Source: Geodermatophilus sp. TF02-6 (GTDB lineage: Bacteria; Actinomycetota; Actinomycetes; Mycobacteriales; Geodermatophilaceae). From it: a stretch of 64,000 bases of DNA. The stretch is taken from assembly GCF_003319115.1 (NCBI RefSeq), contig NZ_QOHF01000009.1, forward strand, positions 1 through 64,000, in the 5' to 3' direction. This document shows, one piece after another, positions 3,130 through 59,160 of this stretch. Within the stretch, counting starts at the first letter, position 1; every line of letters starts with the position of its first letter. Position numbers and translations under genes: made by a program. Under the pieces are notes generated by a model. That model was not told where the DNA came from. It saw nothing but the letters and a program-made list of their open reading frames with translations, and searched no databases.

Positions 3130-3228
3130 ACGGCGGCCTCCCTGCAGTAAGAGGACCCCGTCCTCCTCACCCCTCGCAAGCTCGGGGCGAGCCTCGGAAC
3201 GGGGCCGGGGGCAGGGAGGCCCTTCTTC
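3130..3228. repeat. GC-rich palindromic repeat, type A copy interrupted by a type B copy
   Basis: The outer arms ggcctccctgcag (about 3135) and gggggcagggaggccctt (about 3207-3224) are the two ends of the type A repeat seen elsewhere in the window. Between them sits a type B unit, gaggaccccgtcctcc followed by cccctcgcaagctcgggg. The arrangement looks like one repeat inserted in another. It lies at the 3' end of glgC and could also act as a transcription terminator. Confidence 0.7.
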
Positions 3229-4456
3229 AGACATGGGCGCGGGCCCCCTTGCCCAGGACGGTCACCCCGCCGGCGCTGACGTGGTAGCGCTCGCGGTCGG
3301 CGGAGAGGTCGACACCGATGCGCGCCCAGTCCGGGACGACGACGAACTTGTCGAGGATGGCCCGCCGCACGTAGGCACCCTCGCCGACGTGCACGCCGTC
3401 CATGAGCACGCTGTCCTCCACCCGGGCGCCGCGCTCGACGCGGACGCCGGGCGAGACGACGGAGTTGTGCACCGACCCGCCGCCGATGATCGCGCCGGCG
3501 CTGACCATCGACTCCTCCGCGCGGCCGCCGAGCACGAACTTCGCCGGCGGCTGTTGCGGCGGCAGGGTGAGGATCGGCCAGCGGTCGTTGTAGAGGTTGA
3601 ACACCGGGGTGACCGACACCAGGTCCATGTGCGCGTCGAAGTAGGAGTCGATCGTCCCGACGTCCCGCCAGTAGCCGTGGTCGCGCTCGGTGGCGCCGGG
3701 GACGACGTTGGTGGAGAAGTCGTACACCCACGCCTGCCCGGCGTCGGACAGCATCGGCATGATCGAGCCGCCCATGTCGTGCGCGGACTCCTCGTCCTCG
3801 GCGTCCTCGCGCAGGGCCTCGAGCAGCGCGTCGGTGGTGAACACGTAGTTGCCCATGGAGGCGAAGCTCTCCTCGGGCGAGTCCGGCAGCCCCGGCGGGT
3901 CGGCCGGCTTCTCCAGGAAGCCGCGGACCCGCCCGTCGGCGTCGGAGTCGATGACGCCGAACCCGGTGGCCTCGTGCCGCGGCACCCGCAGGCCGGCGAT
4001 GGTGACCCCGGCCCCGGTCTGCTGGTGCTGGTCGATCATCTGCGCGGGGTCCATCCGGTACACGTGGTCGGCGCCGAAGACGACGACGATGTCGGGCCGG
4101 GCGTCGTAGATGAGGTTGAGGCTCTGGAAGATCGCGTCGGCGCTGCCGGTGTACCAGCGCGGCCCGAGGCGCTGCTGCGCCGGCACCGGGGTGATGAAGT
4201 TGCCCAGCATCTGCGACAGCCGCCAGGTGGTGGTGATGTGCCGGTCGAGGCTGTGGCTCTTGTACTGGGTGAGGACGGCGACCTGCCGGATCTCGGCGTT
4301 GACCAGGTTGGACAGCACGAAGTCGATGAGCCGGTAGTTGCCGCCGAAGGGGACCGCCGGCTTGGCCCGGTCCTGCGTCAGGGGCGCCAGCCGTTTGCCC
4401 TCTCCACCGGCGAGGACGATGCCGAGGACCCGGGGACCACCACGCATGTGGCGCAA
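3227..4456 (-). CDS. glgC: Glucose-1-phosphate adenylyltransferase
   Basis: ADP-glucose pyrophosphorylase of 409 residues. It makes ADP-glucose from glucose-1-phosphate and ATP, the committed step of bacterial glycogen and alpha-glucan synthesis. The N-terminal nucleotidyltransferase domain carries the pyrophosphorylase signature [10 protein letters not shown] followed by [17 protein letters not shown] and the substrate motif FLEKPAD; the C-terminal quarter is a left-handed beta helix of hexapeptide-like repeats. Length is normal. ATG at 4456 is used here; a second ATG three codons in (4447) is equally plausible. It is divergent from glgA across a 150-bp gap, the usual actinobacterial arrangement, suggesting coordinated control. 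Confidence 0.97.
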
Positions 4457-4506
4457 CGTAGCGGGTGACGCGGATCACCGCCGCTCCGCGCGCTGCACGG
4501 CCCCGC

Positions 4507-4596
4507 CCCGAGCCTGCGAAGGGTGCGGAGGACGGTGGCCCCCCTGCAGGGTCCCGTCGCGAGCGTGCGAGCGGCGGGGGGCAGGGGGGTCCTTCT
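4507..4596. repeat. GC-rich palindromic repeats between glgC and glgA
   Basis: A type B unit in reverse orientation (gagcctgcgaagggtgcgga) is followed at about 4537-4595 by a complete type A unit in reverse orientation: ggcccccctgcagggtccc, gcgagcgtgcgagc, ggggggcaggggggtccttc. The type A unit has complementary outer arms and can fold into a long hairpin. It lies directly upstream of the glgA start, so it would be in the leader of the glgA transcript or overlap its promoter. Confidence 0.75.
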
Positions 4597-4608
4597 AGGG
4601 TGGGGGCC

Positions 4609-5781
4609 GTGCGCATCGGCATGGTGACGAGGGAGTGGCCGCCGGACGTCTACGGGGGCGCGGGTGTGCACGTCGAGCACCTCGCCGCGGCGCTGCGTGC
4701 GCTGCCGGACGGTCCCGAGCTCGACGTGCACTGCTTCGGCGGGCCGAGACCGGACGCGACCGGCCACGAGGTGCCCCCGGGGCTGGAGAAGGCCAACGGC
4801 GCGCTGCAGGCGCTCGGCGTCGACGTCGAGATCGCCGGGGCGCTGGCCGAGGTCGACCTGGTGCACAGCCACACCTGGTACGCCAACGCCGCGGGCCTGT
4901 TCGCCTCGCTGGTGCACGGCACGCCGCACGTGGTGACCGCGCACTCCCTCGAGCCGCGCCGGCCGTGGAAGGCCGACCAGCTCGGCGGGGGCTACCGGCT
5001 CTCCTCGTGGGTCGAGCGCACCGCCTACCTGGCCGCCGACGGGGTGATCGCGGTCAGCGCCGGCATGCGCGACGACGTGCTGGCCGTCTATCCCGAGCTG
5101 GACCCCGCGCGGTTGCACGTGGTCCACAACGGCGTCGACGCCGAGGCCTACCGCCCGGTGCCCGACCCCGGCACCGTGCGCTCCCTCGGGGTCGACCCCG
5201 ACCGGCCCTACGCGCTGTTCGTCGGCCGGATCACCCGGCAGAAGGGCGTGACGCACCTGCTCGCCGCCGCCGAGCAGCTGCCCGCCGACGCCGGCCTGGT
5301 GCTGTGCGCCGGGGCCGCGGACACCCCGGCGGAGCGCCAGCAGGTCGCCGACGCGGTCGCCACGCTGCAGGCCCGGCGGGACGGCGTCGTCTGGATCGAG
5401 GCGATGCTGCCCCGCGAGCAGCTGGTCCCACTGATCACCGGCGCCACGGTGTTCGTCTGCCCGTCGGTGTACGAGCCGCTGGGCATCGTCAACCTGGAGG
5501 CCGCCGCCTGCGGCACCGCGGTCGTGGCCAGCGCCGTGGGCGGCATCCCCGAGGTGGTCGACGACGGCCGCACCGGGCTGCTCGTGCCCTACGACCCCGA
5601 GGACGCAGCCGCCTTCGAGGCCGGCCTGGCCGCGCGGATCGCCGAGCTGCTGGCCGATCCGCCGCGGGCGGAGGCGATGGGCGCGGCCGGCCGCGAGCGG
5701 GTGCTGGCCGAGTTCGGCTGGCCGGCGGTGGCGCAGCAGACGGTCGGGGTCTACTCCGCCGTCCTCGACGCGCGGAGCTGA
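4609..5781 (+). CDS. glgA: Glycogen synthase, actinobacterial GT4 type
   Basis: A 390-residue glycosyltransferase of the GT4 (retaining, GT-B) fold that moves glucose from ADP-glucose to a growing alpha-glucan; mycobacterial homologues make maltose-1-phosphate or glycogen. N-terminal GREW-like region PPDVYGGAGVHVEHL binds acceptor and the C-terminal half has the E-x7-E motif in EPLGIVNLEAAACG. Length matches the roughly 390-residue actinobacterial form rather than the 470-residue enterobacterial one. Start chosen as GTG 4609 (VRIGMVTREWPP); the frame is open further upstream, but that part is encoded by the intergenic repeat. Divergent from glgC. Confidence 0.95.
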   Translation: MRIGMVTREWPPDVYGGAGVHVEHLAAALRALPDGPELDVHCFGGPRPDATGHEVPPGLEKANGALQALGVDVEIAGALAEVDLVHSHTWYANAAGLFASLVHGTPHVVTAHSLEPRRPWKADQLGGGYRLSSWVERTAYLAADGVIAVSAGMRDDVLAVYPELDPARLHVVHNGVDAEAYRPVPDPGTVRSLGVDPDRPYALFVGRITRQKGVTHLLAAAEQLPADAGLVLCAGAADTPAERQQVADAVATLQARRDGVVWIEAMLPREQLVPLITGATVFVCPSVYEPLGIVNLEAAACGTAVVASAVGGIPEVVDDGRTGLLVPYDPEDAAAFEAGLAARIAELLADPPRAEAMGAAGRERVLAEFGWPAVAQQTVGVYSAVLDARS

Positions 5782-5796
5782 CCGCCGCCGCGGCTG

Positions 5797-5910
5797 GTAC
5801 CGTCGCGCCGCCGGCCTGGTGCCGGCGGCGCTCGCGCAGCGAAGACCGGTGCGAACCCGGCGCTGTCCCGCAACTGTGATGGCCTCCCGGCCTCAGCCAG
5901 ATCGCCTGCC
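5797..5910 (+). ncRNA. Cobalamin riboswitch
   Basis: The conserved B12-element core is clear: gaagaccggtgcgaacc, then ggcgctgtcccgcaactgtg, and the B12 box agccagat near 5895. It sits about 90 bases ahead of btuF. The sequence between the B12 box and the btuF start is GC-rich and can fold, ending in a ggaagg ribosome-binding site, so control could be by blocking the ribosome site or by early termination. It predicts that btuFCD is switched off when adenosylcobalamin is plentiful. The 5' boundary is approximate. Confidence 0.93.
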
Positions 5911-6001
5911 CCGCGTCGTGTACCGACCCTCGCGGCAGGGGTCGCGCATCGGGGCCGGGCGCCCCTGGGCGGCCGCGTGCCGCCTCCCGGAAGGCTCCCC
6001 G

Positions 6002-6934
6002 TTGCTCCGCACCACCCCGCGCCGGCTCGCCCCGGTCGCGCTGCTGCCCCTGCTCGTCCTGTCCTCGTGCGGCGGGAGCGAGCCCCCCGCCGAGGGCGCC
6101 GCCACGACCGCCTCGGCCGACGGACACCCGGTCACCGTCACCGGCGACGACGGCGAGCTGACCCTCGACCAGCGGCCGGAGTCCATCGTGTCGATGTCGG
6201 CCTCGGCCACCGAGATGCTCTTCGCGATCGGCGCCGGCGGGCAGGTCGAGGCGGTGGACAGCACCTCGGACTTCCCGGCCGAGGCGCCGACCACCGACCT
6301 GTCGGCGTTCACCCCGAACGCCGAGGCGATCGCCGCCCGCTCCCCCGACCTGGTCGTCCTCAGCGACGACCTGAACGGCATCGTCGGCGCCCTGGACGCG
6401 CTCCAGGTGCCGACCCTGCTGCTCGGCGCGGCCGACACGCTCGACGAGAGCTACGCCCAGATCGAGACCCTGGGCGAGGCCACCGGGCACGCCGAGCAGG
6501 CCGCCGACGTGGTGGCCGGCATCCAGGACCGGATCGCCGCCGCGGTGGACTCCGTCCCGGACTCGGTGCAGGGCATGCGCGTCTACCACGAGATCGACCC
6601 GAGCTTCTACTCGGCGACCAGCGACACCTTCATCGGCGGCGTCTACGCGCTGTTCGGGCTGGAGAACATCGCCGACGGCGCCGCCGACCCCGCCGGGGGC
6701 TACCCGCAGCTGTCCGCCGAGTACGTCGTCGGCCGGGCGCCGGACCTGGTCGTGCTGGCCGACACGGTCTGCTGCGGCGAGAACGCCGCGACGCTGGCCG
6801 CGCGACCGGGCTTCGACACGGTGCCCGCGGTGCAGCAGGGCCGGGTGCTGGCCGTCGACGACGCCGTCGCCTCGCGGTGGGGGCCGCGGGTCGCCGACTT
6901 CGCCGAGTCCCTCGCGGCCGAGCTGCGGAGCTGA
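6002..6934 (+). CDS. btuF: Vitamin B12 ABC transporter substrate-binding lipoprotein
   Basis: A 310-residue periplasmic-binding-type protein of the BtuF/FecB class (two lobes joined by a helix). The N-terminus is a lipoprotein signal with lipobox LVLSSC, so the mature protein is anchored by Cys at about residue 23. Motifs of the family include PESIVSMSASATEMLFAIGAG and LSDDLNGIV. The start is taken as TTG 6002, preceded by ggaagg, because it gives a clean signal peptide; longer frames run into the riboswitch. B12 is the predicted ligand because of the riboswitch; the family also includes iron-siderophore binders. First gene of btuFCD. Confidence 0.85.
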   Translation: MLRTTPRRLAPVALLPLLVLSSCGGSEPPAEGAATTASADGHPVTVTGDDGELTLDQRPESIVSMSASATEMLFAIGAGGQVEAVDSTSDFPAEAPTTDLSAFTPNAEAIAARSPDLVVLSDDLNGIVGALDALQVPTLLLGAADTLDESYAQIETLGEATGHAEQAADVVAGIQDRIAAAVDSVPDSVQGMRVYHEIDPSFYSATSDTFIGGVYALFGLENIADGAADPAGGYPQLSAEYVVGRAPDLVVLADTVCCGENAATLAARPGFDTVPAVQQGRVLAVDDAVASRWGPRVADFAESLAAELRS

Positions 6935-6949
6935 GCGGAGCGCGGACCC

Positions 6950-8029
6950 GTGACGGCTCCCGCGGGCACCCGACCCGTCGCCGCGGCACCGGCCCGGCAC
7001 CGGCGCCGGACGGCGGTCGTCCTGTCCGGCGCCGCGGTGGCGCTGGTGCTGGCGGCGCTGGCCGGGGTCTGGGTGGGTGCCCTGCCGCTGCCGCCCGGAG
7101 CGGTGCTCGCCACGCTGCTCGACCGCGCGCTCGCCCCCCTCGGCGTGGACGTGCCCGGCGGGCTGGAGGGCACCGGCGCGGCGGTGCTGCTGCAGCTGCG
7201 GCTGCCGCGGGTGGTGCTGGCGGCGCTGGTCGGGGGCGGGCTGGCCGTCTCCGGCGCCGCCTACCAGGGGGTGTTCCGCAACCCGCTGGCCGACCCGTAC
7301 CTGCTGGGGGCGGCCGCCGGTGCCGGGCTGGGCGCGACCCTGGTCATCGCGTACGCGCCCGGGACGTCGCTGGGCCCGGTCGGCGTCGTCCCGCTCGCGG
7401 CGTTCGCCGGGGCGCTGGCCGGCGTCGGCGCGGCGCTGGCCCTGGGCACCGCCGCCGGCGGGTCGTCCAGCGCGACGCTGCTGCTGGCCGGGGTCGCCGT
7501 CGCCTCGTTCCTGGCCGCCGCGCAGACCCTGGTCCAGCAGCAGGACAGCGACGACCTGCGCCAGGTCTACGGCTGGCTGCTCGGCCAGCTCGGCCGGGCG
7601 CGGTGGACCGACGTCGTCCTCGTGCTCCCCTACCTCGGCGCCGCGTGCCTGGTGCTGCTGCTGTGCGGCCGGGCGCTGGACGTGCTGGCGGTCGGCGACG
7701 ACGAGGCCCGCTCCCTCGGCGTGCACCCGGGCCGGCTGCGGCTGCTGGTGGTGGCCGCGGCGTCGCTGGCCACCGCCGCGGCCGTGGCGGTCAGCGGGCT
7801 GATCGGCTTCGTCGGGCTGGTGGTGCCGCACGTCGTCCGGCGGCTGGTCGGCGGCTCGTACGCCCGGGTGCTGCCCGCGGCCCTGCTCGCCGGCGGCGCC
7901 TTCCTCGTGCTCGCCGACCTGGTGGCCCGGGTGGTGCTGGCCCCCGCCGAGCTGCCGATCGGCGTGGTGACCGCCTTCGTCGGTGCCCCGTTCTTCGCCG
8001 GGCTGCTGTGGTCGGGGAGGCGGCGGTGA
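6950..8029 (+). CDS. btuC: Vitamin B12 ABC transporter permease (FecCD family)
   Basis: A 359-residue inner-membrane permease with about ten membrane helices, of the FecCD/BtuC family. Recognisable family segments include QLRLPRVVLAALVGGGLAVSG, GVFRNPLADPYLLG and, near the C-terminus, GLIGFVGLVVPHVVR. It would form the dimeric channel through which cobalamin passes. It starts with GTG 15 bp after btuF and its stop overlaps the btuD start (GTGA), showing one co-translated operon under the cobalamin riboswitch. Confidence 0.92.
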   Translation: MTAPAGTRPVAAAPARHRRRTAVVLSGAAVALVLAALAGVWVGALPLPPGAVLATLLDRALAPLGVDVPGGLEGTGAAVLLQLRLPRVVLAALVGGGLAVSGAAYQGVFRNPLADPYLLGAAAGAGLGATLVIAYAPGTSLGPVGVVPLAAFAGALAGVGAALALGTAAGGSSSATLLLAGVAVASFLAAAQTLVQQQDSDDLRQVYGWLLGQLGRARWTDVVLVLPYLGAACLVLLLCGRALDVLAVGDDEARSLGVHPGRLRLLVVAAASLATAAAVAVSGLIGFVGLVVPHVVRRLVGGSYARVLPAALLAGGAFLVLADLVARVVLAPAELPIGVVTAFVGAPFFAGLLWSGRRR

Positions 8030-8862
8030 CCGGTGCCCGGGTGGAGGTCGTGGGGCTGGGCGCCGCCCACGGTCGCAGCCGCGTGCTCGACGACGTCCGG
8101 CTGACGGTGGCGCCCGGCGGGTGGACGGCGGTCATCGGGCCCAACGGCTCGGGCAAGACCACCCTGCTGCGCGCGGTGCTGGGCGCGCACCCGCACGAGG
8201 GGCTGGTCCGCGTCGACGGCGTCCCGACCGCGGACACGCCCCGGCGGGCGCGGGCCCGCCAGATGGCCTACGCCCCCCAGCGCCCGGTCGTGCCCGACGG
8301 CGTGACCACCGCCGAGTACGTGGGCCTGGGCCGCACCCCGCACCGGCCGCTGCTCGCCGCACCCCGCGCGGGCGACCGGCAGGTCGTGGCCGACGTGATA
8401 GCGCGGCTGGAGCTGACCGACCTGGCCGACCGGCTGGTGAGCACGCTCTCCGGCGGGGAGCAGCAGCGCGCGGTGCTGGCCCGGGCGCTGGCCCAGCAGC
8501 CGCGGGTGCTGCTGCTCGACGAGCCGACCGCCGCCCTCGACCTGGGACACGCCCAGCAGGTGCTCGACCTGGTCGACCGGCTGCGCCGGCAGGACGGGCT
8601 GACCGTGCTCAGCACGCTGCACGACCTGACCCTGGCCGGGCAGTACGCCGACCGGCTGGCCCTGCTCTCCCGGGGGCGGGTGGTCGCCGAGGGGCGGCCG
8701 GCGGAGGTCCTGACGCCGGCGGCGCTGGCCGGCCACTACGGCGCGCGGGCCGAGGTGGTGGCGGGCCCGCACGGCCCGGTCGTGGTCCCGCTCCGGGGGT
8801 CGGGGAGGCGATGCGGATCGGATCGATCCGTTTCCCCGGGTGGTGGCGGGGAAGGCGGATGA
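8026..8862 (+). CDS. btuD: Vitamin B12 ABC transporter ATP-binding protein
   Basis: A 278-residue ABC ATPase that powers the BtuC channel. Walker A GPNGSGKTT, Q-loop region, signature LSGGEQQR, Walker B VLLLDEP and a switch histidine in LSTLHDL are all present. GTG at 8026 overlaps the btuC stop by four bases. The last 20 or so residues are low-complexity and glycine-rich and may be dispensable. Ligand assignment to B12 comes from the upstream riboswitch; the protein alone cannot be separated from siderophore-type FecE ATPases. Confidence 0.9.
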   Translation: MTGARVEVVGLGAAHGRSRVLDDVRLTVAPGGWTAVIGPNGSGKTTLLRAVLGAHPHEGLVRVDGVPTADTPRRARARQMAYAPQRPVVPDGVTTAEYVGLGRTPHRPLLAAPRAGDRQVVADVIARLELTDLADRLVSTLSGGEQQRAVLARALAQQPRVLLLDEPTAALDLGHAQQVLDLVDRLRRQDGLTVLSTLHDLTLAGQYADRLALLSRGRVVAEGRPAEVLTPAALAGHYGARAEVVAGPHGPVVVPLRGSGRRCGSDRSVSPGGGGEGG

Positions 8863-8869
8863 TCGGGTC

Positions 8870-9607
8870 ATGTCGATCGCCGCGCGTTTCCGGGCCGCGC
8901 TGGGCGACGTCGACGACGCCGACCTCGCCGGCCCCGAGCTGCTGCCGGTCCGGCTCTGCCGCGCCTGCGCGCGCACGCTGGGGGTCGACGGCGCCGGCAT
9001 GAGCGTCCTCGACCGCGACGGACGGCGGATCCCGCTGGGTGCCAGCTCCGAGACGGCCGGCACGGCCGAGCGGCTGCAGTTCACCGCCGGCAGCGGCCCC
9101 TGCCAGTCGGCCCAGGAGAACCGCGAGCCGGTCTTCGCGACCTTCGCCGACCTGCAGCGCCGGTGGCCGGCGTTCGCCGGTCTCCTGGCCGAGCACACGC
9201 CCTACCGCGCCGTGGTCGCCCTCCCCATCGGCGAGACGCTGACCGGGCCGGGCGCCCTCGACCTGTTCTTCGTCGACGACGCCACCGTGACCGACCTCGA
9301 CGTCTTCGAGGCCATGGCCGTCGGCGGCCTGGTCACCTCGGTGCTCGGGGAGGCCGCGGTGTGGGCGCCGTGGTCCCCGCAGGGCGGCCCGGCCTGGCTG
9401 CACGGCCCGGCGGCGCGGCGCCGCGCGACGGTCTGGACGGCGATGGGTCGGCTCGCCATGGCGCTGGACACCGACGGCCTCATCGCGCTGGACCTGCTGC
9501 GCGGCGCGGCGTGGACGGCCGACCGCTCCGTCGACGACCTGGCCGAGGACGTGGTCGCCGGCCGGCTCGACCCGGCCGCCCTCCGGCCGCGGGAGGACGG
9601 CCCGTAG
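8870..9607 (+). CDS. GAF domain protein with C-terminal ANTAR-like region
   Basis: A 245-residue cytoplasmic protein. Residues about 10-150 form a GAF-type sensor (LCRACARTLGVDGAGMSV, then TAGSGPCQSAQENREPVF), a form common in actinobacterial two-part regulators. The C-terminal 60 residues (TVWTAMGRLAMALD, LDLLRGAAW, SVDDLAEDVV) look like an ANTAR RNA-binding helix bundle, which would make it an antitermination regulator; this part is less certain. ATG 8870 gives a natural N-terminus; a GTG at 8840 would overlap btuD. No kinase lies nearby. Target RNAs and ligand are unknown. Confidence 0.7.
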   Translation: MSIAARFRAALGDVDDADLAGPELLPVRLCRACARTLGVDGAGMSVLDRDGRRIPLGASSETAGTAERLQFTAGSGPCQSAQENREPVFATFADLQRRWPAFAGLLAEHTPYRAVVALPIGETLTGPGALDLFFVDDATVTDLDVFEAMAVGGLVTSVLGEAAVWAPWSPQGGPAWLHGPAARRRATVWTAMGRLAMALDTDGLIALDLLRGAAWTADRSVDDLAEDVVAGRLDPAALRPREDGP

Positions 9608-9949
9608 CGCCGGAGCCGGTCGGCGTCGACCGCGTCCGGGCGCCCCGGTCGCCGTGCCGCAGGGCCCCCGTCGAGGTGCACGGCGTCGAGGTGCACGGCG
9701 TCGAGGTGCACGAACTCGTGGCCTTGAGCGCCTGACGACCATGACTGGTGCGTCTCGGCGCATCCCGGGAGCCCACCGGTACGCGACCTGCACCAGGTGG
9801 ACCTCGACTGGCACCCGTGGGCGAGGAGCTGCTGTGGCAGCTGGTCGCCGCGCGCGCCCCGTGGCTGCGGGTGCGGTACGCCTTCTTGAGCAAGGACCCC
9901 GTCCTCCCCAGCCCTCGCAGGCTCGGGCCGGTACCCGGGGCGGTGCCCG
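9608..9949. other. 342-bp gap with a 15-bp tandem repeat and a type B repeat
   Basis: No convincing gene. At 9670-9714 the unit gtcgaggtgcacggc occurs three times in tandem (third copy slightly changed). Around 9820-9885 a stretch could encode PVGEELLWQLVAARAPWLRVR, which looks like real coding sequence, but it has no start or continuation, so it may be a gene scrap. At 9890-9945 lies a type B GC-rich repeat (aggaccccgtcctcc, ccctcgcaggctcggg) next to the stop of the DUF6766 gene. Confidence 0.5.
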
Positions 9950-10633
9950 TCAGCCGGTCTGCCCGGTGTCGGCGTGCGCGGCACCCACCGGCTTGGACTC
10001 CGGTGAGCCGCGCTGGCGCAGGTAGACGGCGAAGATCGCCATGGAGCCGACGGCGAGCATCTCCGACTGCCAGTTCTGGAAGGTGCGGTTCCAGAAGTCG
10101 GCCTCGCCGAGGTAGCCGACCCAGCTGACCGGATCCTCCAGGGCGGCGAGCTGCTCGGCGTTGAACGCCGCCCAACCGGCGACCGAGGAGGCCGCCCAGG
10201 TCAGCAGGAACAGCGCTCCCATGAGCAGGCCGAGGGAGCGGGAGAACAGCGCCGTCCGCCAGCCGCCGGCGCGGGCCCACGTCGGGGAGTGCTCGTCGGC
10301 GTGCGGGCCGACGTGCTGGTCCTCGTCGGACTCCCGGCCCTCCTTGCCCGGCTCCTTGGACTCCGACGACCCGCGCTGCACGAGCCAGACGGTCGCGAAG
10401 ATGTAGAGGAAGAACTGCAGGTACTCCGACTGCCAGTTCTCCATCACGTCCACCCCGAACGACGACGAGGTGACGTAGTCGAGGAAGGACACCGGCTCCA
10501 GGCCGTCGGCGACCTGCTGGTGGTTGACGTAGGCGGTCCCGGAGATCGCCTGGCCGAGGAGGAAGACGAGGAACAGCCCGCCGAACACGAGGCCGAGGCT
10601 GTTGTCCCGGAGGAAGCTCCGCCGCTCGCTCAC
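9950..10633 (-). CDS. DUF6766 membrane protein with internal duplication
   Basis: A membrane protein of about 227 residues with four predicted helices. The two halves are clearly duplicates: each has SLGL(V/L) leading into a helix, an N-x-x-Q-x-A segment, a PVS-plus-aromatic segment, then NWQSE, a second helix, and QRGS-x-ESK. The halves are joined by a charged, hydrophilic linker rich in E, D and H. Function is unknown; the family is annotated only as a domain of unknown function. GTG at 10633 is preferred because it overlaps the stop of the upstream small gene (GTGA); an ATG at 10645 is the alternative. Third gene of a tight operon. Confidence 0.8.
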   Translation of the reverse strand: MSERRSFLRDNSLGLVFGGLFLVFLLGQAISGTAYVNHQQVADGLEPVSFLDYVTSSSFGVDVMENWQSEYLQFFLYIFATVWLVQRGSSESKEPGKEGRESDEDQHVGPHADEHSPTWARAGGWRTALFSRSLGLLMGALFLLTWAASSVAGWAAFNAEQLAALEDPVSWVGYLGEADFWNRTFQNWQSEMLAVGSMAIFAVYLRQRGSPESKPVGAAHADTGQTG

Positions 10634-10722
10634 CGGCCCATCCACCCCAGGGCCACGACGTACCCGACCCCCAGCAGGATCACCACCAGGTAGCCCACGA
10701 ACACTGCACGGACGTCCTTCAC
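10630..10722 (-). CDS. 30-residue single-pass membrane peptide
   Basis: A very small gene encoding one hydrophobic helix, beginning VKDVRAVFVGYLVV and ending ALGWMGR. It starts with GTG overlapping the stop of the upstream lipoprotein gene (10719-10722, GTGA), and its stop overlaps the GTG proposed for the DUF6766 gene. Such double translational coupling is strong evidence that it is translated. It could be a small subunit or stabiliser of the neighbouring membrane proteins; no function is known. Composition (basic N-terminus, hydrophobic core, basic C-terminus) fits insertion in the cytoplasmic membrane. Confidence 0.65.
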   Translation of the reverse strand: MKDVRAVFVGYLVVILLGVGYVVALGWMGR

Positions 10723-11120
10723 GGCCCCTCCACCTGACAGTCGTAGGGCGCTTCCCGCCGCGCCTGGCACGCGGCGGCGGCGACCCGCCACCCGGCGTCG
10801 GTCCGGGTGAGGAAGACGGTGTCGTCGGTCATCCGGACCTGGGCCTCGTCACCCCAGACCTCCACCGCCCGGACCGCCCCGCCGCCGAGCGGCAGCCGGC
10901 CGATCGCATCGGTGCAGGGCATCGACTCGTCGGACTCGAGCGCGGCCCGCGTGGCGGGGGTGAGCAGCGCACACCGGGCTGCGGGGTCCCCCGCCGGGTC
11001 CTCGAAGGCCAGGGCCACCTGTCCGACGTCACCCTCCGCGAGGCGCGCGCAGCCGGCCAGCAACCCGGCCAGGGCCAACCCCGCGGCGGTCAGGCACCTC
11101 CTCGTCGTCGAGGTCGCCAC
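10719..11120 (-). CDS. Small lipoprotein of unknown function
   Basis: A 133-residue secreted lipoprotein: a basic N-terminus, hydrophobic stretch and lipobox LLAGC give a mature, membrane-anchored domain of about 110 residues. The mature part has four further cysteines (in ARCALL, MPCTD, AAACQ and YDCQ) that could form two disulfides, and reads as a small alpha+beta fold (RAVEVWGDEAQVRM, TVFLTRTDAGWRV) like NTF2-type or SnoaL-type accessory domains; that comparison is loose. First gene of a three-gene overlapping operon with a 30-residue membrane peptide and a DUF6766 protein. Confidence 0.75.
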   Translation of the reverse strand: MATSTTRRCLTAAGLALAGLLAGCARLAEGDVGQVALAFEDPAGDPAARCALLTPATRAALESDESMPCTDAIGRLPLGGGAVRAVEVWGDEAQVRMTDDTVFLTRTDAGWRVAAAACQARREAPYDCQVEGP

Positions 11121-11269
11121 CCGAGCCTCCCGTCCTCCCCCTCCGTCGTCCCGGCCCTGCGGGCTGGGCCCGACCGCCTACCCGAGCCGGACGACCCGGC
11201 AAACGGTGCCCACCCGCCCGGGGGAACCGGCGGTGCCGACGGCCCGGCCCGGCCTCGTACCGTGGCGGC

Positions 11270-12784
11270 ATGGCGCGGGTGGCGGTGGTCGGCGCGGGCC
11301 TCGGCGGGCTGGCGGCCGCGGCCCGGCTGGTCTCGCTGGGCCATGCGGTCACCGTGCTGGAACAGGCTCCGGCGGTCGGCGGCAAGCTGGGCTGGTACGT
11401 CCGCGACGGGCACGGCTTCGACACCGGCCCGAGCCTGGTGACCCTCCCGCAGGTGTACCGCGACCTGTTCGCCGCGACCGGCGCCCGGCTGGAGGACGCC
11501 GTCGACCTGGTGCGCCTCGACCCCGCGGTCGCCTACCGCTTCGCCGACGGGACGCCGCTGCTCGTGCCGGGCACCCGCCAGGAGGTCCCGGACGCCGTCG
11601 ACGCGGCCCTCGGCCCGGGCACCGGCGCCCAGTGGGCGGCCCTGCTGGCCCGCGCCGGCGCGATGTGGCGGGTCACCGAGCAGCCGTTCCTGCGCTCGCC
11701 GCTGGCCGGCGCGGCCACCCTGGCCCGGCTGGCCCGCAGCGCCTCCGACGTCGCCACGGTCGCCCCCTGGCGCACGCTGCGCGGCCTGGGCGCCGAGCAC
11801 CTGCGGCACCCGGCGCTGCGCACCCTGCTCGACCGCTACGCCACCTACTCCGGATCCGATCCGCGGCGGGCACCGGCGGTGCTGGCCACCGTCCCGTACG
11901 TCGAGCAGGAGTACGGCTCCTGGTACGTGCGCGGCGGACTGCGCCGGCTGGCCGAGGCGGTGGCGGCGCGGGCGGTCGAGCGCGGCGCCGTCGTCCGCAC
12001 CGGGGCTCTGGTGGAGCGGGTGCTGGTCGAGGGCGGGCGGGCGGCCGGCGTGCGCCTGGCCGACGGCGAGGTGCTGGGGGCCGACGTCGTGGTCTCCGGC
12101 GCGGACGCCGCGGCCCTCTACGCCGACCTGCTCCCCTCCTCGCGCGCGACCGGTCGGGTGCGCCGCGACCTCGCCCGCAGCACGCCGTCGCTGTCGGGGT
12201 TCGTGCTGCTGCTGGCGCTGCGCGGCCGCACGCCGGGGCTGGCGCACCACACCGTGCTCTTCCCGGAGGACTACGACGCCGAGTTCGACGCGGTCTTCGG
12301 CGTCGGTCGGCACCGCGGCGCGCCGCGGCCGGTGGCCGACCCGACGGTGTACGTCAGCGCGCCCGATGACCCGGCCACCCGCCCGGACGGTGCCGACGAG
12401 TCGTGGTTCGTGCTGGTCAACGCGCCGCGACACCGTGCAGGGCACGACCCGGCCGGCGGCGTCGACTGGGACGCCCCCGGGCTGGCCGACCGCTACGCGC
12501 AGCAGGTGCTCGAGGTGATGGCCCGCCGCGGGCTCGACGTCCGCGACCGGCTGCGCTGGTGCGTCGTCCGGACCCCGGCCGACCTGGCGCGCGAGACCCG
12601 CAGCGTCGGCGGCTCGATCTACGGGACGTCGAGCAACGGCGCCCGCGCGGCGTTCCTCCGCCCGGGCAACGCCTCCCCCGTCCCGGGGCTGTTCCTCGTC
12701 GGAGGCTCGGCGCACCCCGGCGGCGGGCTGCCGCTGGTGGCGCTGTCGGCGCAGATCGTCGCCGGGTTGGTGGGCCCGGCCTGA
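11270..12784 (+). CDS. crtI: CrtI-family carotenoid desaturase / FAD-dependent oxidoreductase
   Basis: A 504-residue flavoprotein of the phytoene desaturase family. The N-terminal dinucleotide-binding fold VVGAGLGGLAAAARL is followed by the EQAPAVGGKLG motif and DTGPSLVTLP typical of CrtI; the C-terminal FAD-contact motif GGSAHPGGGLPLVALSA is also intact. It would introduce double bonds into phytoene or a related C30/C40 carotene at the membrane. No crtB, crtE or cyclase lies nearby, so it is an orphan gene and could equally be a CrtN/CrtO-like desaturase or ketolase. A CrtA-like monooxygenase lies 42 kb away in the same window. Followed after 26 bp by a regulator gene. Confidence 0.85.
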   Translation: MARVAVVGAGLGGLAAAARLVSLGHAVTVLEQAPAVGGKLGWYVRDGHGFDTGPSLVTLPQVYRDLFAATGARLEDAVDLVRLDPAVAYRFADGTPLLVPGTRQEVPDAVDAALGPGTGAQWAALLARAGAMWRVTEQPFLRSPLAGAATLARLARSASDVATVAPWRTLRGLGAEHLRHPALRTLLDRYATYSGSDPRRAPAVLATVPYVEQEYGSWYVRGGLRRLAEAVAARAVERGAVVRTGALVERVLVEGGRAAGVRLADGEVLGADVVVSGADAAALYADLLPSSRATGRVRRDLARSTPSLSGFVLLLALRGRTPGLAHHTVLFPEDYDAEFDAVFGVGRHRGAPRPVADPTVYVSAPDDPATRPDGADESWFVLVNAPRHRAGHDPAGGVDWDAPGLADRYAQQVLEVMARRGLDVRDRLRWCVVRTPADLARETRSVGGSIYGTSSNGARAAFLRPGNASPVPGLFLVGGSAHPGGGLPLVALSAQIVAGLVGPA

Positions 12785-12810
12785 GGCCCCGAGCTGCGAG
12801 ACTCGGCGGT

Positions 12811-15800
12811 GTGCAGGTCGGATACCTGGGGCCGCTGGAGGTCGGCGACGACGGGCGCACCGTCGCGGTGCCGGGTGCCCGGCTGCAGCAGCTGCTGGTC
12901 GCGCTGGCCCTCGACCCGGGCCGGTGGGTCCCGGCCGGCGCCCTCGCCGACGCGGTGTGGGGTGCCGAGCAGCCGGCCGACCCGGTCAACAGCCTGCAGT
13001 CGCTGGTCTCCCGGCTGCGCCGCGCGCTCGGTCGGCCGGAGCTGGTCGAGCAGTCCGCCGCGGGTTACCGGCTGGGAGTCGCACCCGACGACGTGGACGC
13101 CGTCCGGTTCACCCGGCTGGTCGCAGAGGGCCGGCGGCTGCTGGCCGGCGGGGAGAGCCGCGCCGCCGCTGCGGCGCTCGACGCGGCCCTGGCGCTGTGG
13201 CGCGGCGAGCCGCTGCCCGGCGACGACTCCCCCGAGGCGGCCGGGCGGCGGGCGGCGCTGAGCGACCTGCGGCTGGCCGCGCTGTGCGACCGGGCCGCGC
13301 TGGCCGTGCGCGACGGGCGGGCGGCCGAGGTGGTGCCCCAGCTGGAGGAGCTGGCCGCGGCCTCCCCGCTGCGCGAGGACCTCGCCGGCGCGCTGGTCGA
13401 CGCGCTCGCCGCCGCGGGACGGCCGGCCGCGGCGCTGGCCGCCTACGAGCGGGTGCGCGCGGCGCTGGCCGACTCGCTCGGCGCCGACCCGTCGCCGGAG
13501 CTGCGCGCCCGGCACCTGCGGCTCCTGCGCCAGGGCGACCGCCCGGCGGAGGTGCCGACGAACCTGCGGGCGGCGGTGACCAGCTTCGTCGGGCGCGAGG
13601 ACGCCGTCCGCACGGTGCAGGAACGGCTGGCCGCCTCCCGGCTGGTGACGGTCGTCGGCGCCGGCGGCTCGGGCAAGACCCGGCTGGCCGGCGAGGTCGC
13701 GTCCCGGGTCGTCGCGGCGCAGACCCCGGCGGCACCCGACGGCGTCTGGCTGGTCGAGCTCGCCCCGGTCACCGAACCCACCGCCGTCGCGCAGGTGGTC
13801 CTCGACAGCCTGGGCGGACGGGGCATCGTCATCCCCGACCCGGTGGGTGAGTACCAGCGCCGCGAGGCACGCGAGCGGCTGCTGGAGCGGCTGCGCACCG
13901 CGACCTGCCTGCTCGTCGTCGACAACTGCGAGCACCTGGTCGACGCCGTGGCCGAGGTGGTCGCCGAGGTCCTCGGCCGGTGCCCGGGCGTGCGCGTGCT
14001 GGCCACCAGCCGCGAGCCGCTGGCCATCGAGGGCGAGACCCTCTTCCCGCTGGGCCCGCTGGCCGTCCCGGCCGAGGGGGCCCCGCCCGCAGAGGCGGCG
14101 GCCAACCCGGCGGTGCGGCTGCTGCTGGACCGGGCGCGGGCCGTCGGCGCCGACGTCGAGCCGGACACCGCCGCGGTCGAGATCGTCCGCCGGCTGGACG
14201 GCCTGCCCCTGGCGATCGAGCTGGCGGCGGCCCGGCTGCGGGTGCTCTCCTCCGCCGAGGTCGCCGAACGGCTGGCCGACCGCTTCCGGCTGCTGACCGG
14301 GGGACGGCGGACCGCGACCCCGCGGCACCGGACGCTGCGGGCGGTCGTCGAGTGGAGCTGGGGCCTGCTGACCCCGCTCGAGCGCGAGGTCGCCGAGCAC
14401 TTCTCGGTGTTCGCCTCGGGCGCTCCCGAGGCGGCGGTGGCCGCGGTCGCGCCCAGCCGGCGGGAGGGCGCGGCGGCCGAGGAGCTGGCCGACGTCCTGC
14501 ACGCGCTGGTCGACAAGTCGCTGCTGACCGCGACCCGGACGGCGGAGGGCACTCGCTTCCGCATGCTGGAGACGCTGCGCGAGTACGGCGCCGAGCGGCT
14601 GGCCGAGCTGGGGTTGGTCACCGCGGCCCGCGCCGCGCACGCCCGCTGGTTCACCGAGCTGGTGCGCGTCCAGGACGAGCGCCTGCGCACCGCCGAGCAG
14701 CTCGACGCGCTGCGGGTGCTCGACACCGAGCGGGACGACGTCCTCGCGGCGCTGCGGTTCCTCGGTGACACCGGGGACGCGGCGGGCGCCGTCGACCTCG
14801 CCGTCCACCTGGGCTGGTACTGGCTGCTGCGGGAGAGCGGGCAGGAGGCCACCCGCTGGACGGCGTTCGCCCTGGCGGTGCCCGGCGCGCAGCAGACTCC
14901 GCACGCCGTGCTGGCCGAGGCCCTGCAGACGCTGCTCGGCTTCGCCGTCGGCAGGGACACGGTGGACGTCCGCTGCACGAAGCGGGAGTTCGCCGAGCTG
15001 TCCGAGCGGCTGACCGCCGCGGAGGACGCACACCCCGCGGCGAAGGTGGTGCGGCCGCTGATGCTGTTCATGGGCGGGGAGCGGGAGACGGCCGATGCCG
15101 TGCTCGAGGAGGTCCTGGACGACCCGGACCCGTGGGTGCGGGCGACGGCCCGGCTGGCCCGGCTGATGTACGCGGAGAACGACGGGGACGTCGACCGCGT
15201 GCGCCGCGAGGGCGACGAGGGCGTGCGCGAGTGGGAGGCCCTCGGCGACCGGTGGGGGCTGGCCACGCTGCTGTCCTCGCGGGGGCAGGTGCGCACCGTG
15301 GACGGCGACCTCGTCGGCGCCGCGGAGGACTACGAGCGCGCCCAGGACTGCATCCGGCAGCTCGGCGGCGGCTCGAACGACCACGTGCTCGTCACCATGC
15401 GGCTGGCCGACCTGCGGCTGCGGGCCGGGGACACCGCCGGCGCCCGGCGCCACCTGGCGGCGATGCGCGCACAGCGCTCCCTGGGCGGCGCGGGGGAGCT
15501 GCTGCACGACGTGCTCGTCGCGATCACCGAGGGGGCGATCGCCGTCATCGAGGAGGACGACGCCGGGGTCGCCAGGGCCTGCGCGGTGCTGGACGAGCTG
15601 CTCCGCGCGCTGGGCGAGCCGTCGATGCTCAGCGCGCACAGCGGCGCGATCGGCCACGCGTCGGCGGCTGCGCTGGCGCTGCGCCTGGGCCGCGACGCCG
15701 AGGCGGCCGAGCACGTCCGCGAGGGGTACGCGCAGGCGCTGGTCACCAGCGACCGGCCGATCCTCGCCGCGGTCGGGATGTCGGTGGCGAACTGGGCGCG

Positions 15801-16017: not shown

Positions 16018-16019
16018 CG

Positions 16020-16079
16020 GGCATGGGAAGCGATACCGGCGTCCCGGGTGCCCGGGACGCCGGTATCGCTTCCCATGCC
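16020..16079. terminator. Perfect 29-bp-stem hairpin
   Basis: The 29 bases from 16020 are exactly complementary to 16051-16079, leaving a loop of only two bases. It starts two bases after the stop of the regulator gene and would end its transcript very efficiently, but there is no U tract and the stem is far longer than needed. The arm contains GGGAAGCGA, also found in the arm of the hairpin at 47799-47866. Confidence 0.85.
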
Positions 16080-47400: not shown

Positions 47401-47466
47401 AGGACCTCGTCCCACCCCACGACACGCTTCGCGCGCCGCGGGCCCCTGGAACGAGGCCGTTCCAGC
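47398..47466. repeat. Repeat-like terminator after cysH
   Basis: aaggacctcgtcccacccca near 47400 and gaacgaggccgttcca near 47450 are degenerate repeat arms with a GC-rich loop between. It directly follows the cysH stop and probably ends the sulfur operon. Confidence 0.5.
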
Positions 47467-47474
47467 GCGGCAGG

Positions 47475-47777: not shown

Positions 47778-47798
47778 CAGAGGACCCCCTCCTCGACG

Positions 47799-47907: not shown

Positions 47908-48300
47908 TCAGTCGGTGATCGGCAGGACGAGCAGCCGCAGCAGCCGGTCGGCCTCGGCGTCCGGGTCGTCGGTCAGGCCGGTGTGCACCGGCCCGGGCTG
48001 GACGACGGTGCTGCGCGGCGCGGTCAGCCAGCGGAACCGCGAGCCCAGCGCCTCCCGGCCGGCGGCGCCCGAGGCGGGATCGGCGGCGCAGACGTCGGCC
48101 GCCGCCTGCAGCGCGCGGCGGACGGCGTCGGCGTCGGCGGTCGGGTCCAGGGCCCGCAGCCGGTCGACGTCCAGGTGCACCCGGGAACCGAGGTAGTCGC
48201 GCTGCCGGCAGTAGACGAGGACGCCGGCGTTGAGCGCCTCGCCCCGCTCCACCCGGGGGACCACCCGCAGGACGGCGTACTCGAAGGTGTCCCGGCTCAC
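47908..48300 (-). CDS. DUF3037 domain protein
   Basis: A 130-residue soluble protein of the DUF3037 family, beginning SRDTFEYAVLRVVPRVERGEALNAGVLVY, with the characteristic segment VERGEALNAGV. Function unknown. Genes of this family usually sit beside a HipA-like kinase, as here. Start GTG 48300 overlaps the HipA stop (GTGA), so they are translated together. It may be a substrate, partner or antitoxin-like regulator of the kinase. Confidence 0.88.
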   Translation of the reverse strand: MSRDTFEYAVLRVVPRVERGEALNAGVLVYCRQRDYLGSRVHLDVDRLRALDPTADADAVRRALQAAADVCAADPASGAAGREALGSRFRWLTAPRSTVVQPGPVHTGLTDDPDAEADRLLRLLVLPITD

Positions 48301-55146: not shown

Positions 55147-55148
55147 TC

Positions 55149-55206
55149 GGCCATCCTCCAGGGGCCCTCCGCCTGAGCGCGCGAGGCGTGGGGGGGAGGA
55201 TGGTCC
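55149..55206. repeat. GC-rich palindromic repeat, divergent type A
   Basis: ggccatcctccaggggccc, ccgcctgagcgcgcgaggcg, ggggggaggatggtcct: same layout as type A with complementary arms ggccatcctcc/ggaggatggtcc. It sits between the convergent CrtA-like and GNAT genes. Confidence 0.75.
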
Positions 55207-55209
55207 TGC

Positions 55210-55725
55210 TCAGAGCCGGCAGGTCAGGTGGATCTCGTCGCGGTCGTCGCCCGGCGCCACCCGGACCGCTCCCGGCATCCGACCGAACTCGCGGTAGCCG
55301 AGCCCCTGGTAGAAGGCCTCGATGCCGGTGCCGCCGCGCACGGTGAGGTGCAGGAACTCCAGGCCGCGCTGCCGGGCGATGGCGTGCACCCCCTCCATCA
55401 GGACGCGCCCGAGGCCCCTGCCCTGCCGGCTGGGGTGCACCTGCACCCGCAGCACGGTCGCCCAGTGCCGGCGCAGCGGGCTCATCGACAGCGACAGGAC
55501 GGCGAACCCGGCCACCTCGCCGTCCACCCGCAGCAGCGCGACCACCTCGCGCCCCTCGTGCACCCGCTCCACCACGGCGTCGAGGACCGGCGCCACCTCC
55601 TCCGCCGTCACCGGGGGGACGAAGCCGACCGCTCCCCCGGCGTTGCTCACCTCGGTCCAGCAGGTGAGCAGCTGCGACCGGAGCTCCTCGTCGACGGCTC
55701 CGACCGGGCAGACCTCGGCGCGCAT
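55210..55725 (-). CDS. GNAT-family N-acetyltransferase
   Basis: A 171-residue single-domain acetyltransferase. Acetyl-CoA loop VQVHPSRQGRGLGRVLMEGV (Q-x-x-G-x-G), and the C-terminal strand/helix FLHLTVRGGTGIEAFYQGLGYREFG are typical. Substrate unknown. ATG 55725; other in-frame starts upstream (to 55791) add a non-conserved tail. Confidence 0.9.
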   Translation of the reverse strand: MRAEVCPVGAVDEELRSQLLTCWTEVSNAGGAVGFVPPVTAEEVAPVLDAVVERVHEGREVVALLRVDGEVAGFAVLSLSMSPLRRHWATVLRVQVHPSRQGRGLGRVLMEGVHAIARQRGLEFLHLTVRGGTGIEAFYQGLGYREFGRMPGAVRVAPGDDRDEIHLTCRL

Positions 55726-57422: not shown

Positions 57423-57434
57423 GCCCCGACCGGG

Positions 57435-58991
57435 TCAGGCGACCGGCACCCGGCGCAGCAGCCGCAGCGCCGCGGTCATCACCCGCGCGTAGCGGTCCAG
57501 CGGCATCCCGGGCAGCGGTCCCAGCGGCAGTCCGCGCTGGACGGCGACGGTCTGCGCCTCGGTGACGGCGAGGATGCCCTCCCGGCCGTGCCGGCGCCCC
57601 AGGCCGGAGTCGCCCATGCCGCCCATCGGCGCGTCGTGGGATGCCCAGGCGGCGGCGTAGCCCTCGTTGACGTTCACCGTGCCGGCGCGGATGCCGGCGG
57701 CGACCGCGGCGCCCCGCCGCGGGGTGGACCACACGGAGGCGTTGAGGCCGTAGGGGGTGTCGTTCGCCCGCCGCACCGCCTCGTCGGCGTCGCGCACCCG
57801 GGTCACGGTCGCCACCGGCCCGAAGGTCTCCTCGCGGGCGACCGGCACGTCCCCGCCGACCCCCTCGAGCAGGGTCGGCTCGTGGAACAGCGGGCCGAGG
57901 TCCGGGCGGGGGCGGCCGCCGGCGAGCACCCGGGCCCCCGCGGCCACGGCGTCGGCGACGTGCCGGGTGACGACGTCGAACTGCGCCCGGTTGGCCAGCG
58001 AACCCATCTCGGCGTCCCAGCCGAACCCGCCGCCGAGCCGGATCCGCCGGGTGCGCTCGGCCAGCGCGGGCACGAAGCGGTCGTACACCGCGTCCTCCAC
58101 GTACAACCGCTCGAGGTGCATGCACAGCTGGCCGCCGTTGGAGAAGCAGCCGCGCACCGCCCCCTCGACGGCCCGGTCGAGGTCGGCGTCGGCCAGCACC
58201 AGCATCGGGTTCTTGCCGCCGAGCTCGGCCGAGCACGAGACCAGCCGGCGGCCGCACCGCTCGGCGACGGTCCGCCCGGTGGCGGTCGACCCGGTGAACA
58301 CCAGGTGGTCGACGCCGTCGACCAGCGGTGCGCCCAGCACCGACCCGCGGCCGGTGACCACGCCGAGCAGCTCCCGCGGCAGCCCGGCGCGGACCAGCAG
58401 GTCGACGGCGGCCAGGGCGGAGAACGGGGTCTGCGCGTCCGGTTTGAGCACCACGCCGTTGCCGCCCAGCAGCGCGGGGACGGCGTCGGACACCGCCAGC
58501 GCCATCGGGGTGTCCCACGGGCTGACGACGCCGACCAGCCCCTTCGGCCGGCGGTGCACGACCGGCCTGGTCAGCCCGGGCAGTGCTCCGCGCCGGCGCT
58601 CCGACCGCAGGTGCCGGGCCGCGGACCGGGCCGCGTAGCCGGCGCTGCGCGCGACGTCGACGACCTCCTCGAAGGCGCTGACCCGGGCCTTGCCGGTCTC
58701 CACCTGCAGGACGTCCATCAGCTCGTTCCGCCGCTGGACGACCAGGTCGCAGAAGCGCAGCGCGACGCGGCACCGGTCGGCGACGGGGCGGGCGGCCCAC
58801 TCGGCCTGGGCCGCCCGCGCCCGCCGCTGCGCCTCGCGCACGTCGTCGGCGGTGCACGTGGGCACCTCCCCGACCGGCGAGCCGTCGAACGGTGCGCGGG
58901 AGCTCTGCCGCGGCCGGCCGGGGGCCGCGGTGACCAGCGTGGCCAGGCGGGTGAGGAGGCCGGCGTCCAGCCGGTCGGCGGCCGTCGTCAT
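57435..58991 (-). CDS. gabD2: Succinate-semialdehyde dehydrogenase (NADP+), GabD2 type
   Basis: An aldehyde dehydrogenase of 518 residues. Catalytic Cys is in NGGQLCMHLERL, the general-base Glu in SAELGGKNPMLV, and the cofactor loop FTGSTATGR; the insertion motif after the Cys (MHLERL) is typical of the actinobacterial GabD2 group. It oxidises succinic semialdehyde to succinate, which could feed the nearby Sdh enzyme. ATG 58991. Convergent with the M1 gene (12 bp between stops). Confidence 0.88.
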   Translation of the reverse strand: MTTAADRLDAGLLTRLATLVTAAPGRPRQSSRAPFDGSPVGEVPTCTADDVREAQRRARAAQAEWAARPVADRCRVALRFCDLVVQRRNELMDVLQVETGKARVSAFEEVVDVARSAGYAARSAARHLRSERRRGALPGLTRPVVHRRPKGLVGVVSPWDTPMALAVSDAVPALLGGNGVVLKPDAQTPFSALAAVDLLVRAGLPRELLGVVTGRGSVLGAPLVDGVDHLVFTGSTATGRTVAERCGRRLVSCSAELGGKNPMLVLADADLDRAVEGAVRGCFSNGGQLCMHLERLYVEDAVYDRFVPALAERTRRIRLGGGFGWDAEMGSLANRAQFDVVTRHVADAVAAGARVLAGGRPRPDLGPLFHEPTLLEGVGGDVPVAREETFGPVATVTRVRDADEAVRRANDTPYGLNASVWSTPRRGAAVAAGIRAGTVNVNEGYAAAWASHDAPMGGMGDSGLGRRHGREGILAVTEAQTVAVQRGLPLGPLPGMPLDRYARVMTAALRLLRRVPVA

Positions 58992-59005
58992 CGCAGTCCT
59001 CCCCG

Positions 59006-59160
59006 GCCCCCTTGCAGGGTCCCGCCGCTGGCCCCGTCCAGAGGCTCGTCCCGAGCCTGCGAGGCGGCCCCTCGCAGGGGCCCGCCGCGAGCTTGTGAGC
59101 GGTGGGGGGCGAGGGGTCCTTCGAGGGGTCCTTCCACGGTGGGGGGCAAGGGGGTCCTCG
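59006..59160. repeat. Nested GC-rich palindromic repeats between gabD2 and the flavin reductase
   Basis: An outer type A copy is split: ggcccccttgcagggtccc, gccgc at 59006-59029 and cggtggggggcaagggggtc, ct near 59136-59158. Between them lie a partial type B core (gtcccgagcctgcgaggc) and a complete second type A copy at 59066-59121 (ggcccctcgcaggggccc, gccgcgagcttgtgagcggt, ggggggcgaggggtccttc). The split halves rejoin exactly, which shows insertion of one repeat into another. Confidence 0.8.

Follow-up and report, generated by a model that had tools for sequence, protein, structure and literature searches.

Folding DNA repeats behind CTGA stop codons in Geodermatophilaceae, a family of probable mobile elements

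The repeat family and its position at gene ends

The 64,000-nucleotide (nt) stretch of Geodermatophilus sp. TF02-6 DNA analyzed here, termed the window, carries copies of a folding DNA repeat of approximately 60 base pairs (bp), which reaches at most hundreds of copies per genome and occurs within one actinobacterial family, the Geodermatophilaceae. The copies share a two-stem fold in which one strand is kept foldable, are placed 3′ of the stop tetranucleotide CTGA, are present or absent at the same gene pair in different species, and nest inside each other. The exact spacing to the tetranucleotide, the orientation, the empty sites and the nesting indicate site-specific insertion of a folded element. 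The repeats are probably mobile but non-autonomous, with an enzyme encoded elsewhere transferring them in the form of a folded single strand of DNA. The family itself is real, strongly structured, lineage-restricted and polymorphic.

At an expectation value (E) <=1e-5, a covariance model, R1, made from 40 copies detects 76 copies in 859 kb of the TF02-6 genome, of which 13 lie within the window, and this density extrapolates to approximately 400 copies in total. The core CGAGCNTGCGAG occurs 347 times in the 4.73-Mb genome compared with 29 occurrences of the reversed pattern used as the control, and CGAGCNTGCGAGNGGTGRGG occurs 171 times compared with 0 for the control. Building such a model and counting genome-wide had been proposed in a sequence-only reading of the window, and both bear out the repeat it described. 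A copy is present at all 11 sites listed there, with the model match beginning no more than 55 bp from the listed position at 10 of them; site 59006 is the outer half of a nest with its inner copy at 59063-59126. Two window copies absent from that list, at 16144-16204 and 47396-47460, are found by the model. The types A and B distinguished in the same reading are both seen; they have one architecture and one core in common and vary in their arms. Chimeras that join a type A head to a type B tail occur (L010:11562 and L023:215). The repeat is a short, high-copy palindrome and mainly extragenic, 70 of the 76 copies lying outside called open reading frames (ORFs). Two TF02-6 copies, L010:8343 of contig C13 and L023:16669 of contig C53, do not differ in any of the compared columns, suggesting recent activity, with gene conversion as the alternative source of the identity.

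The borders of the copies show some recurring additions. A CTGGAAC extension, often GGTGANGTNCTGGAAC, stands immediately before the head GGCC at 22406-22427 of the window and in gaps 18 and 27 of G009, G014 and G015, and may represent a third arm type; GAAC is the most frequent 5′ tetramer (25 of 232 copies). At one locus (L037, G000:C3:93105) short tandem runs of GGGGTCCTTCGA lie behind the tail, as if the tail had been amplified by slippage.

Genes were taken from a codon-usage caller made for this analysis, which covers 81-89% of the bases in the TF02-6 contigs, so the gene ends include some errors and omissions. The 76 copies are distributed over tandem gaps (43), convergent gaps (23), divergent gaps (3) and called ORFs (6), with one at the end of the examined stretch. 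The earlier description of the repeats as often lying between convergent genes fits the 23 but not the 43 in tandem gaps, and a sharper rule is that the tail, the GGTCCTTCT end, faces a stop codon. This is the case in 57 of 75 copies, the tail facing a start in the other 18, and the head faces a stop in 38 of 75.

The spacing between tail and stop is narrowly defined. Profile hits in TF02-6 and eight relatives number 159, of which 137 are full length and 130 are anchored at GGTCC. An opposing stop codon lies 0-6 nt after GGTCC in 48 of the 130 anchored copies and exactly 4 nt after it in 28, with random placement of the 114 in-gap copies giving a mean of 11.2 and a maximum of 20 in 1,000 runs. 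A count that uses no model of the repeat gives the same position: GGACC stands at exactly +4 after the stop at 33 of 792 TF02-6 gene ends and 38 of 755 in the relatives. At offsets 0, 1, 2, 3 and 5 the counts are 5, 8, 8, 8 and 13 in TF02-6 and 10, 10, 3, 2 and 2 in the relatives, and the background at offsets 6-30 is about 3 per position and set, or about 6 for both sets compared with 71 at +4. At the gene ends of four other families of the order, GGACC is found at +4 in 1 of 296. A profile hit lies within 90 nt at 51 of the 71 sites; decayed copies and chance matches are among the other 20, in which a single orthologous site is counted three times.

The stop codon at these positions is almost always preceded by C. 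The 71 sites, with repeated counting of sites orthologous between relatives, comprise 65 CTGA, 4 GTGA and 2 TTGA, compared with CTGA at 785 of 1,548 called gene ends overall. CTGA within gaps but outside stops (985) outnumbers CTGA stops (785), yet 33 of the 35 copies abutting CTGA do so at called stops, the other two being at sites where no stop is called, one of which lies where the examined region ends. The empty allele has CTGA at the same codon in gap 44 (G009) and gap 56 (TF02-6). An element that supplies its own stop is therefore rejected as a general explanation; gap 62 of G014, with its differing gene end, is one of the single cases in which it may do so.

Fold, polymorphism and nesting

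On the GGTCCTTCT strand the repeat is arranged as an outer stem of approximately 10 pairs, a bulge, a 7-pair inner stem with CGAGCNTGCGAG as its loop core, and GGTCC followed by four mostly pyrimidine bases. Alignment A2, composed of 122 copies from 85 loci of relatives, none of which was used for model building, has 96.5% of its cells paired. Its covariation score is 0.478, compared with 0.192 in shuffles (reached by 0 of 500) and 0.02-0.09 when the pairing is slid, and 349 cells are changed on both sides compared with 132 in shuffles (again 0 of 500). Pairs changed on both sides number 13 compared with 11.0, a value reached by 21 of 500 shuffles. Both stems covary, with the reservation that the covariation of A2 favors the structure because A2 was fitted to the model.

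Wobble pairs distinguish the two strands. The GGTCCTTCT strand has 265 G·T cells and 19 A·C cells, or 71 and 16 after dropping three consensus-wobble columns, and since each G·T becomes A·C on the other strand, the GGTCCTTCT strand is the one kept foldable. The ratio of G·T to A·C is 39:4 in 36 copies that are sense to the head-side gene and 40:5 in 33 antisense copies, counted with the two outermost pairs omitted and the inner consensus wobble included; the 6 copies within ORFs (6:4) show no such bias. As the bias is alike in sense and antisense copies, a role in the host transcript is unlikely to be its cause, though inherited changes could carry the bias over. Folded as RNA, the GGTCCTTCT strand of five window copies reaches -33 to -40 kcal/mol with z-scores of -2.3 to -2.9 against shuffles, and exceeds its complement in stability by 3.5 to 8.4 kcal/mol. 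A replication-strand bias was considered in the one-contig genome G024 and set aside as weak and not used: the first 100 of 135 places divide 59 to 41 by hand count, with the origin assumed at base 1 and gene strand as a confounder.

Presence and absence were compared between C53:1-104000 of TF02-6 and the matching regions of eight congeners, whose coverage differs. At least three genomes could be compared at 38 gene pairs; 28 of these are empty throughout, 10 are mixed and 0 are always filled. The suggestion that the repeats are mobile is supported by this mixture, which extends to 10 of 10 occupied gene pairs that could be compared, by the short empty sites and by the nested copies, and positions fixed in all relatives, the outcome that would have spoken against it, are not seen at any of the 38. 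In gap 52 (55147-55209) TF02-6 and G024 are filled between convergent stops, whereas G013, G009 and G015 have 3, 4 and 5 bp, respectively; G080 (173 bp) and G003 (276 bp) hold other sequence and were coded empty. The empty gap reads GTAG-CCCC-CTAC in G009 and GTAG-CCCCT-CTAC in G015 across the two convergent stops, and the filled relatives use TGA. Gap 44 (47401-47474) is filled in TF02-6, G013, G080 and G008 and measures 16-17 bp in G024, G009, G003, G014 and G015; the profile missed the diverged copies of TF02-6, found by the covariance model, and of G008, found by eye, and the gap is mixed either way. In gap 56 the arrangement is reversed, TF02-6 being empty and 8 of 8 relatives filled. Gap 27 has differing copy types behind the same stop codon in different species, and gaps 33 and 62 are filled in single species and require one change each on a 39-gene tree. 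The tree count covers all mixed gaps except gap 42, nine in total, and uses a presence table compiled by hand. No target-site duplication is seen by eye at gaps 44, 52 and 56, which are few sites with diverged flanks.

Dimers and mosaic clusters are present in the form of nests and split copies. Three nests are recognized by eye in the window, and in all of them the inner stem and core of the host copy are lost or cut. In the nest at 3134-3226, listed on the minus strand, a type A host on the plus strand (head 3134-3147, tail 3207-3226) holds an oppositely oriented type B copy (model match 3146-3209) in place of its inner part. In the nest at 41970-42069, listed on the plus strand, a minus-strand type A copy is split into halves that enclose a plus-strand type B copy (model match 41994-42057). 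The third, at 59004-59161 on the plus strand, has three levels, with the levels assigned by eye: an outer type A copy (head 59004-59028, tail 59138-59161), a type B head (59029-59064) and the inner type A copy found by the model. In the first and third nests the outer tail is at +4, ending 4 nt past GGCCC and adjoining the stop of gene 3227-4447(-) in one, and adjoining the stop TCA at 59162-59164 exactly 4 nt after GGTCC in the other. Among 27 orphan head/tail pairs sought within 5 kb, 3 have 9-nt complementary arms, and these split copies are separated by 59, 109 and 110 bp, corresponding to one or two copy lengths.

The repeat family is confined to the Geodermatophilaceae. The pattern CGAGCNTGCGAGNGGTGRGG is present in 96 of 112 genomes of this family, with 0 control matches in each; G041, G057, G069 and the genera g21-g23 are examples of relatives that lack it. 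In a sample of the order it is found in 47 of 298 genomes, 51 of the 298 belonging to the family, and in the other 247 only G173 matches, once; in a class sample of 246 genomes it is found in the TF02-6 genome only. Among the matches listed, named records bearing the pattern belong to Geodermatophilus, Blastococcus, Modestobacter and Trujillonella, with a few labeled only Geodermatophilaceae, Frankiales or, marked unverified, Bacillus. Copy number is uneven within genera, with 0-52 in g18 and 0-75 in g19. The covariance search is positive in 25 of 25 genomes of the same genus and 0 of 16 others, its counts across genomes being floors because 129 first-look candidates were scored per genome. 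A phage or plasmid vehicle was rejected, as viral contigs gave no match to the pattern and phages and plasmids none to one window copy used as the query, and a known RNA family was rejected with 0 Rfam matches at the gathering score in the window.

Movement and competing explanations

The folded-strand bias suggests a single-stranded intermediate, as for the repetitive extragenic palindromes (REPs) and IS200/IS605-like DNA. In the mechanism envisaged, movement would copy the element through single-stranded DNA, a sequence-specific nuclease would cut beside CTGA, and most other landings would be removed by selection against gene damage.

The closest kind of known repeat is the GTAG-tagged REP, and by analogy the present family appears to work like one. 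REPs and the bacterial interspersed mosaic elements built from them, with their REP-associated tyrosine transposases (RAYTs), are described in PMC3733652, PMC2817692 and PMC8266576 as short imperfect palindromes that are abundant and mainly intergenic, occur in either orientation and form mosaics, with ends that can supply or adjoin stop codons and an enzyme that sees the folded single strand. The Escherichia coli enzyme TnpA-REP requires the GTAG motif and cuts at CT on either the 5′ or the 3′ side of the hairpin (PMC8266576). The present repeats differ in length, approximately 60 bp compared with 20-40 for the REPs (PMC3733652), in their conserved 12-nt loop core and in nesting within each other. 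A GTAG or GTGG tag at a distance of 0-2 nt on the 5′ side of the folded-strand hairpin is rare here (5 of 232 copies), and no RAYT or other Y1 transposase is detected in the 112 Geodermatophilaceae genomes. The family is not filed as REP because these two tests, for the folded-strand tag and for RAYT, both failed.

Other systems resemble it in single features. CGTC-tagged REPs are likewise a palindromic family apparently lacking a dedicated transposase (PMC3733652), but carry CGTC at one end, whereas here the stop CTGA is 4 nt away and CGTC is the 5′ tetramer in 6 of 232 copies. An actinobacterial precedent for landing at a translation signal is the mycobacterial interspersed repetitive unit (MIRU), a short repeat that appears mobile (PMC12548453); MIRUs are described at start codons with an ORF inside, in contrast to the present hairpins, which land after stops. 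The tail counts at stops and starts given above express this difference. Miniature elements derived from IS200/IS605 have a directional hairpin, a fixed tetranucleotide neighbor and no visible target duplication. The first two features are shared by the present repeats, which differ in having the tetranucleotide 3′ of the hairpin on the folded strand and in the lack of any detected Y1 gene or autonomous parent.

Three other explanations have to be weighed against movement by a dedicated enzyme. One, which is unlikely, is that the hairpins are transcription terminators or mRNA 3′ stabilizers kept by selection, spread by ordinary recombination and selected for position. The orientation of the tails toward stops, the mere 3 of 76 copies in divergent gaps, the stable folds of the five window copies and the presence of other sequence in gap 52 of G080 and G003 are all consistent with it. 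Selection for a hairpin, however, demands neither an exact +4 spacing nor a C before TGA, and the fold bias is equally strong in copies antisense to the head-side gene. Gap 52 is too short for any hairpin in the three species with 3-5 bp, and a terminator scan of window positions 1-20000 gives two matches, neither at a copy; the tail, TCCTTCT, has no T run of the intrinsic terminator kind. The earlier proposal that the repeats are kept as terminators may hold for a secondary function, a putative 3′ effect of the hairpins on mRNAs or a terminator role, but the +4 position after CTGA, the nesting and the empty sites are left unexplained.

Less probable still is that the repeats are relics of a GTAG-type REP family whose RAYT was lost in the family ancestor, with present change by recombination only. 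They are of the same general kind, being short, numerous, extragenic, clustered and mosaic. CTA or CCA begins 2 nt after GGTCC in 42 of 249 copies and, with the following C (not counted in all copies), reads as GTAG or GTGG two nt from the hairpin on the other strand; according to PMC3733652, the TAG stop of an adjacent ORF is frequently supplied by the end of a GTAG REP. On the folded strand the tag is rare, as noted above, and the identical copies on different contigs and the gaps filled in one species only (33 and 62) point to movement after any loss of RAYT.

The least probable of the three is that no dedicated enzyme is involved and that template switching and gene conversion among the copies during replication account for the spread and nesting of the palindromes: the mosaics, the A/B chimeras and the differing copy types behind one stop in gap 27 fit, but homology-driven exchange alone would not pick new CTGA-adjacent sites and leaves the contrast of filled gaps with empty gaps of 3-17 bp at the same stop unexplained.

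Several observations weigh against insertion behind CTGA by a dedicated enzyme. The spacing is 0, 1, 2, 3 or 5 nt in 20 of the 48 copies close to a stop, and no called stop adjoins 82 of the 130 anchored copies. Empty alleles at gaps 44 and 56 other than the two named above, and those at gaps 1 and 52, have GTGA or TAG, so that the reading of CTGA as the target rests on few direct pairs. The G·T bias is in part inherited from copy to copy. On the 39-gene tree gap 44 needs three changes and gap 52 two, so both gain and loss and repeated landing are to be considered; some changes may be precise losses, in which case gain is not established at every site. With respect to the folded strand, the tetranucleotide is found on the 3′ side of the hairpin, opposite to the arrangement in GTAG REPs.

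The search for the mover also weighs on this side. None of the 112 family genomes has a match to Y1_Tnp (PF01797), which is detected in 5 of 14 named controls. The RAYT model NF047646 exceeds its cut-off in 0 of 112 and in 1 of 14 controls, with five sub-cut-off matches of E 0.39-0.71. A RAYT, suggested earlier as an outside mover, accordingly finds no support in the present genomes, and it and other Y1 transposases were rejected as the present mover. A REPtron-like gene flanked by copies was rejected too, since the 23 genes flanked on both sides appear ordinary and none is transposase-like in its first 60 residues, viewed by eye and not by a family search; a Pfam batch covered ten window proteins. 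The 27 orphan head/tail pairs, at separations up to 5 kb, include no gene-bearing long version with complementary arms, and an autonomous long copy with a gene between its halves was rejected.

A bolder proposal, tentative and on balance doubtful, is that the repeats constitute a new class of mobile DNA for which the CTGA stop is a safe landing pad: the folded single strand would be pasted behind the gene by an undescribed kind of transposase or nuclease, sparing the protein, and later copies would nest in the loops of earlier ones. No description of the landing rule or the repeat family was met in the open PubMed Central literature, where a report in a subscription journal could be missed. 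REP-like repeats are usually tied to RAYT, whereas here a comparable copy number and a family-wide distribution go with a base-exact stop-codon rule and no detected Y1, which allows a defined search for a new mobilizing enzyme. The filled and empty orthologous gene ends also provide a natural experiment on how a hairpin 4 nt behind the stop affects mRNA ends.

Individual copies in the window

Apart from the nests, the copies found by the model are placed as follows. A partial copy at 4493-4539 is followed by a full type A copy at 4535-4598, just before CTAGG, the whole at 4493-4598 being on the plus strand and missing in G013 at the same gene pair. The type B copy at 9887-9950 on the minus strand has weaker outer arms (E 1.1e-11), and the copy at 16144-16204 on the plus strand is diverged (E 4e-9). 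A type A copy at 22344-22407 on the minus strand has the top model score in the window, and its gene pair is without a copy in G014 and G008. At 29649-29712 on the minus strand a type A copy is part of a mosaic whose start directly follows the CTGA stop of the gene that ends at 29585. The diverged copy at 47396-47460 on the minus strand is 1 nt from the stop CTGA of the gene ending at 47400, and another diverged copy, at 55147-55212 on the plus strand, fills the gap between two convergent stops. A type B copy at 48493-48556 on the minus strand is inside the called ORF 48297-49253(-).

Two copies on the plus strand, a type A copy at 20358-20421 and a second at 20431-20494 (E 9.6e-11), lie within the C-terminal end of the called ORF 20317-21978(-). 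This is a Peptidase_M17 gene, and the copies occupy its last 180 bases, apparently read in frame, past the Pfam domain (residues 181-486 of 553). The ends of the Peptidase_M17 genes of G024, G013 and G009 have no copy in the 60 bases viewed. Near the start of the window a DDE_Tnp_1 transposase gene at 298-1905(-), encoding 535 amino acids, shows no sign of a link to the hairpins; it is flanked by an 87-bp pair (191-277 and 2058-2144) that is 99% identical, and the unit looks like an ordinary insertion sequence.

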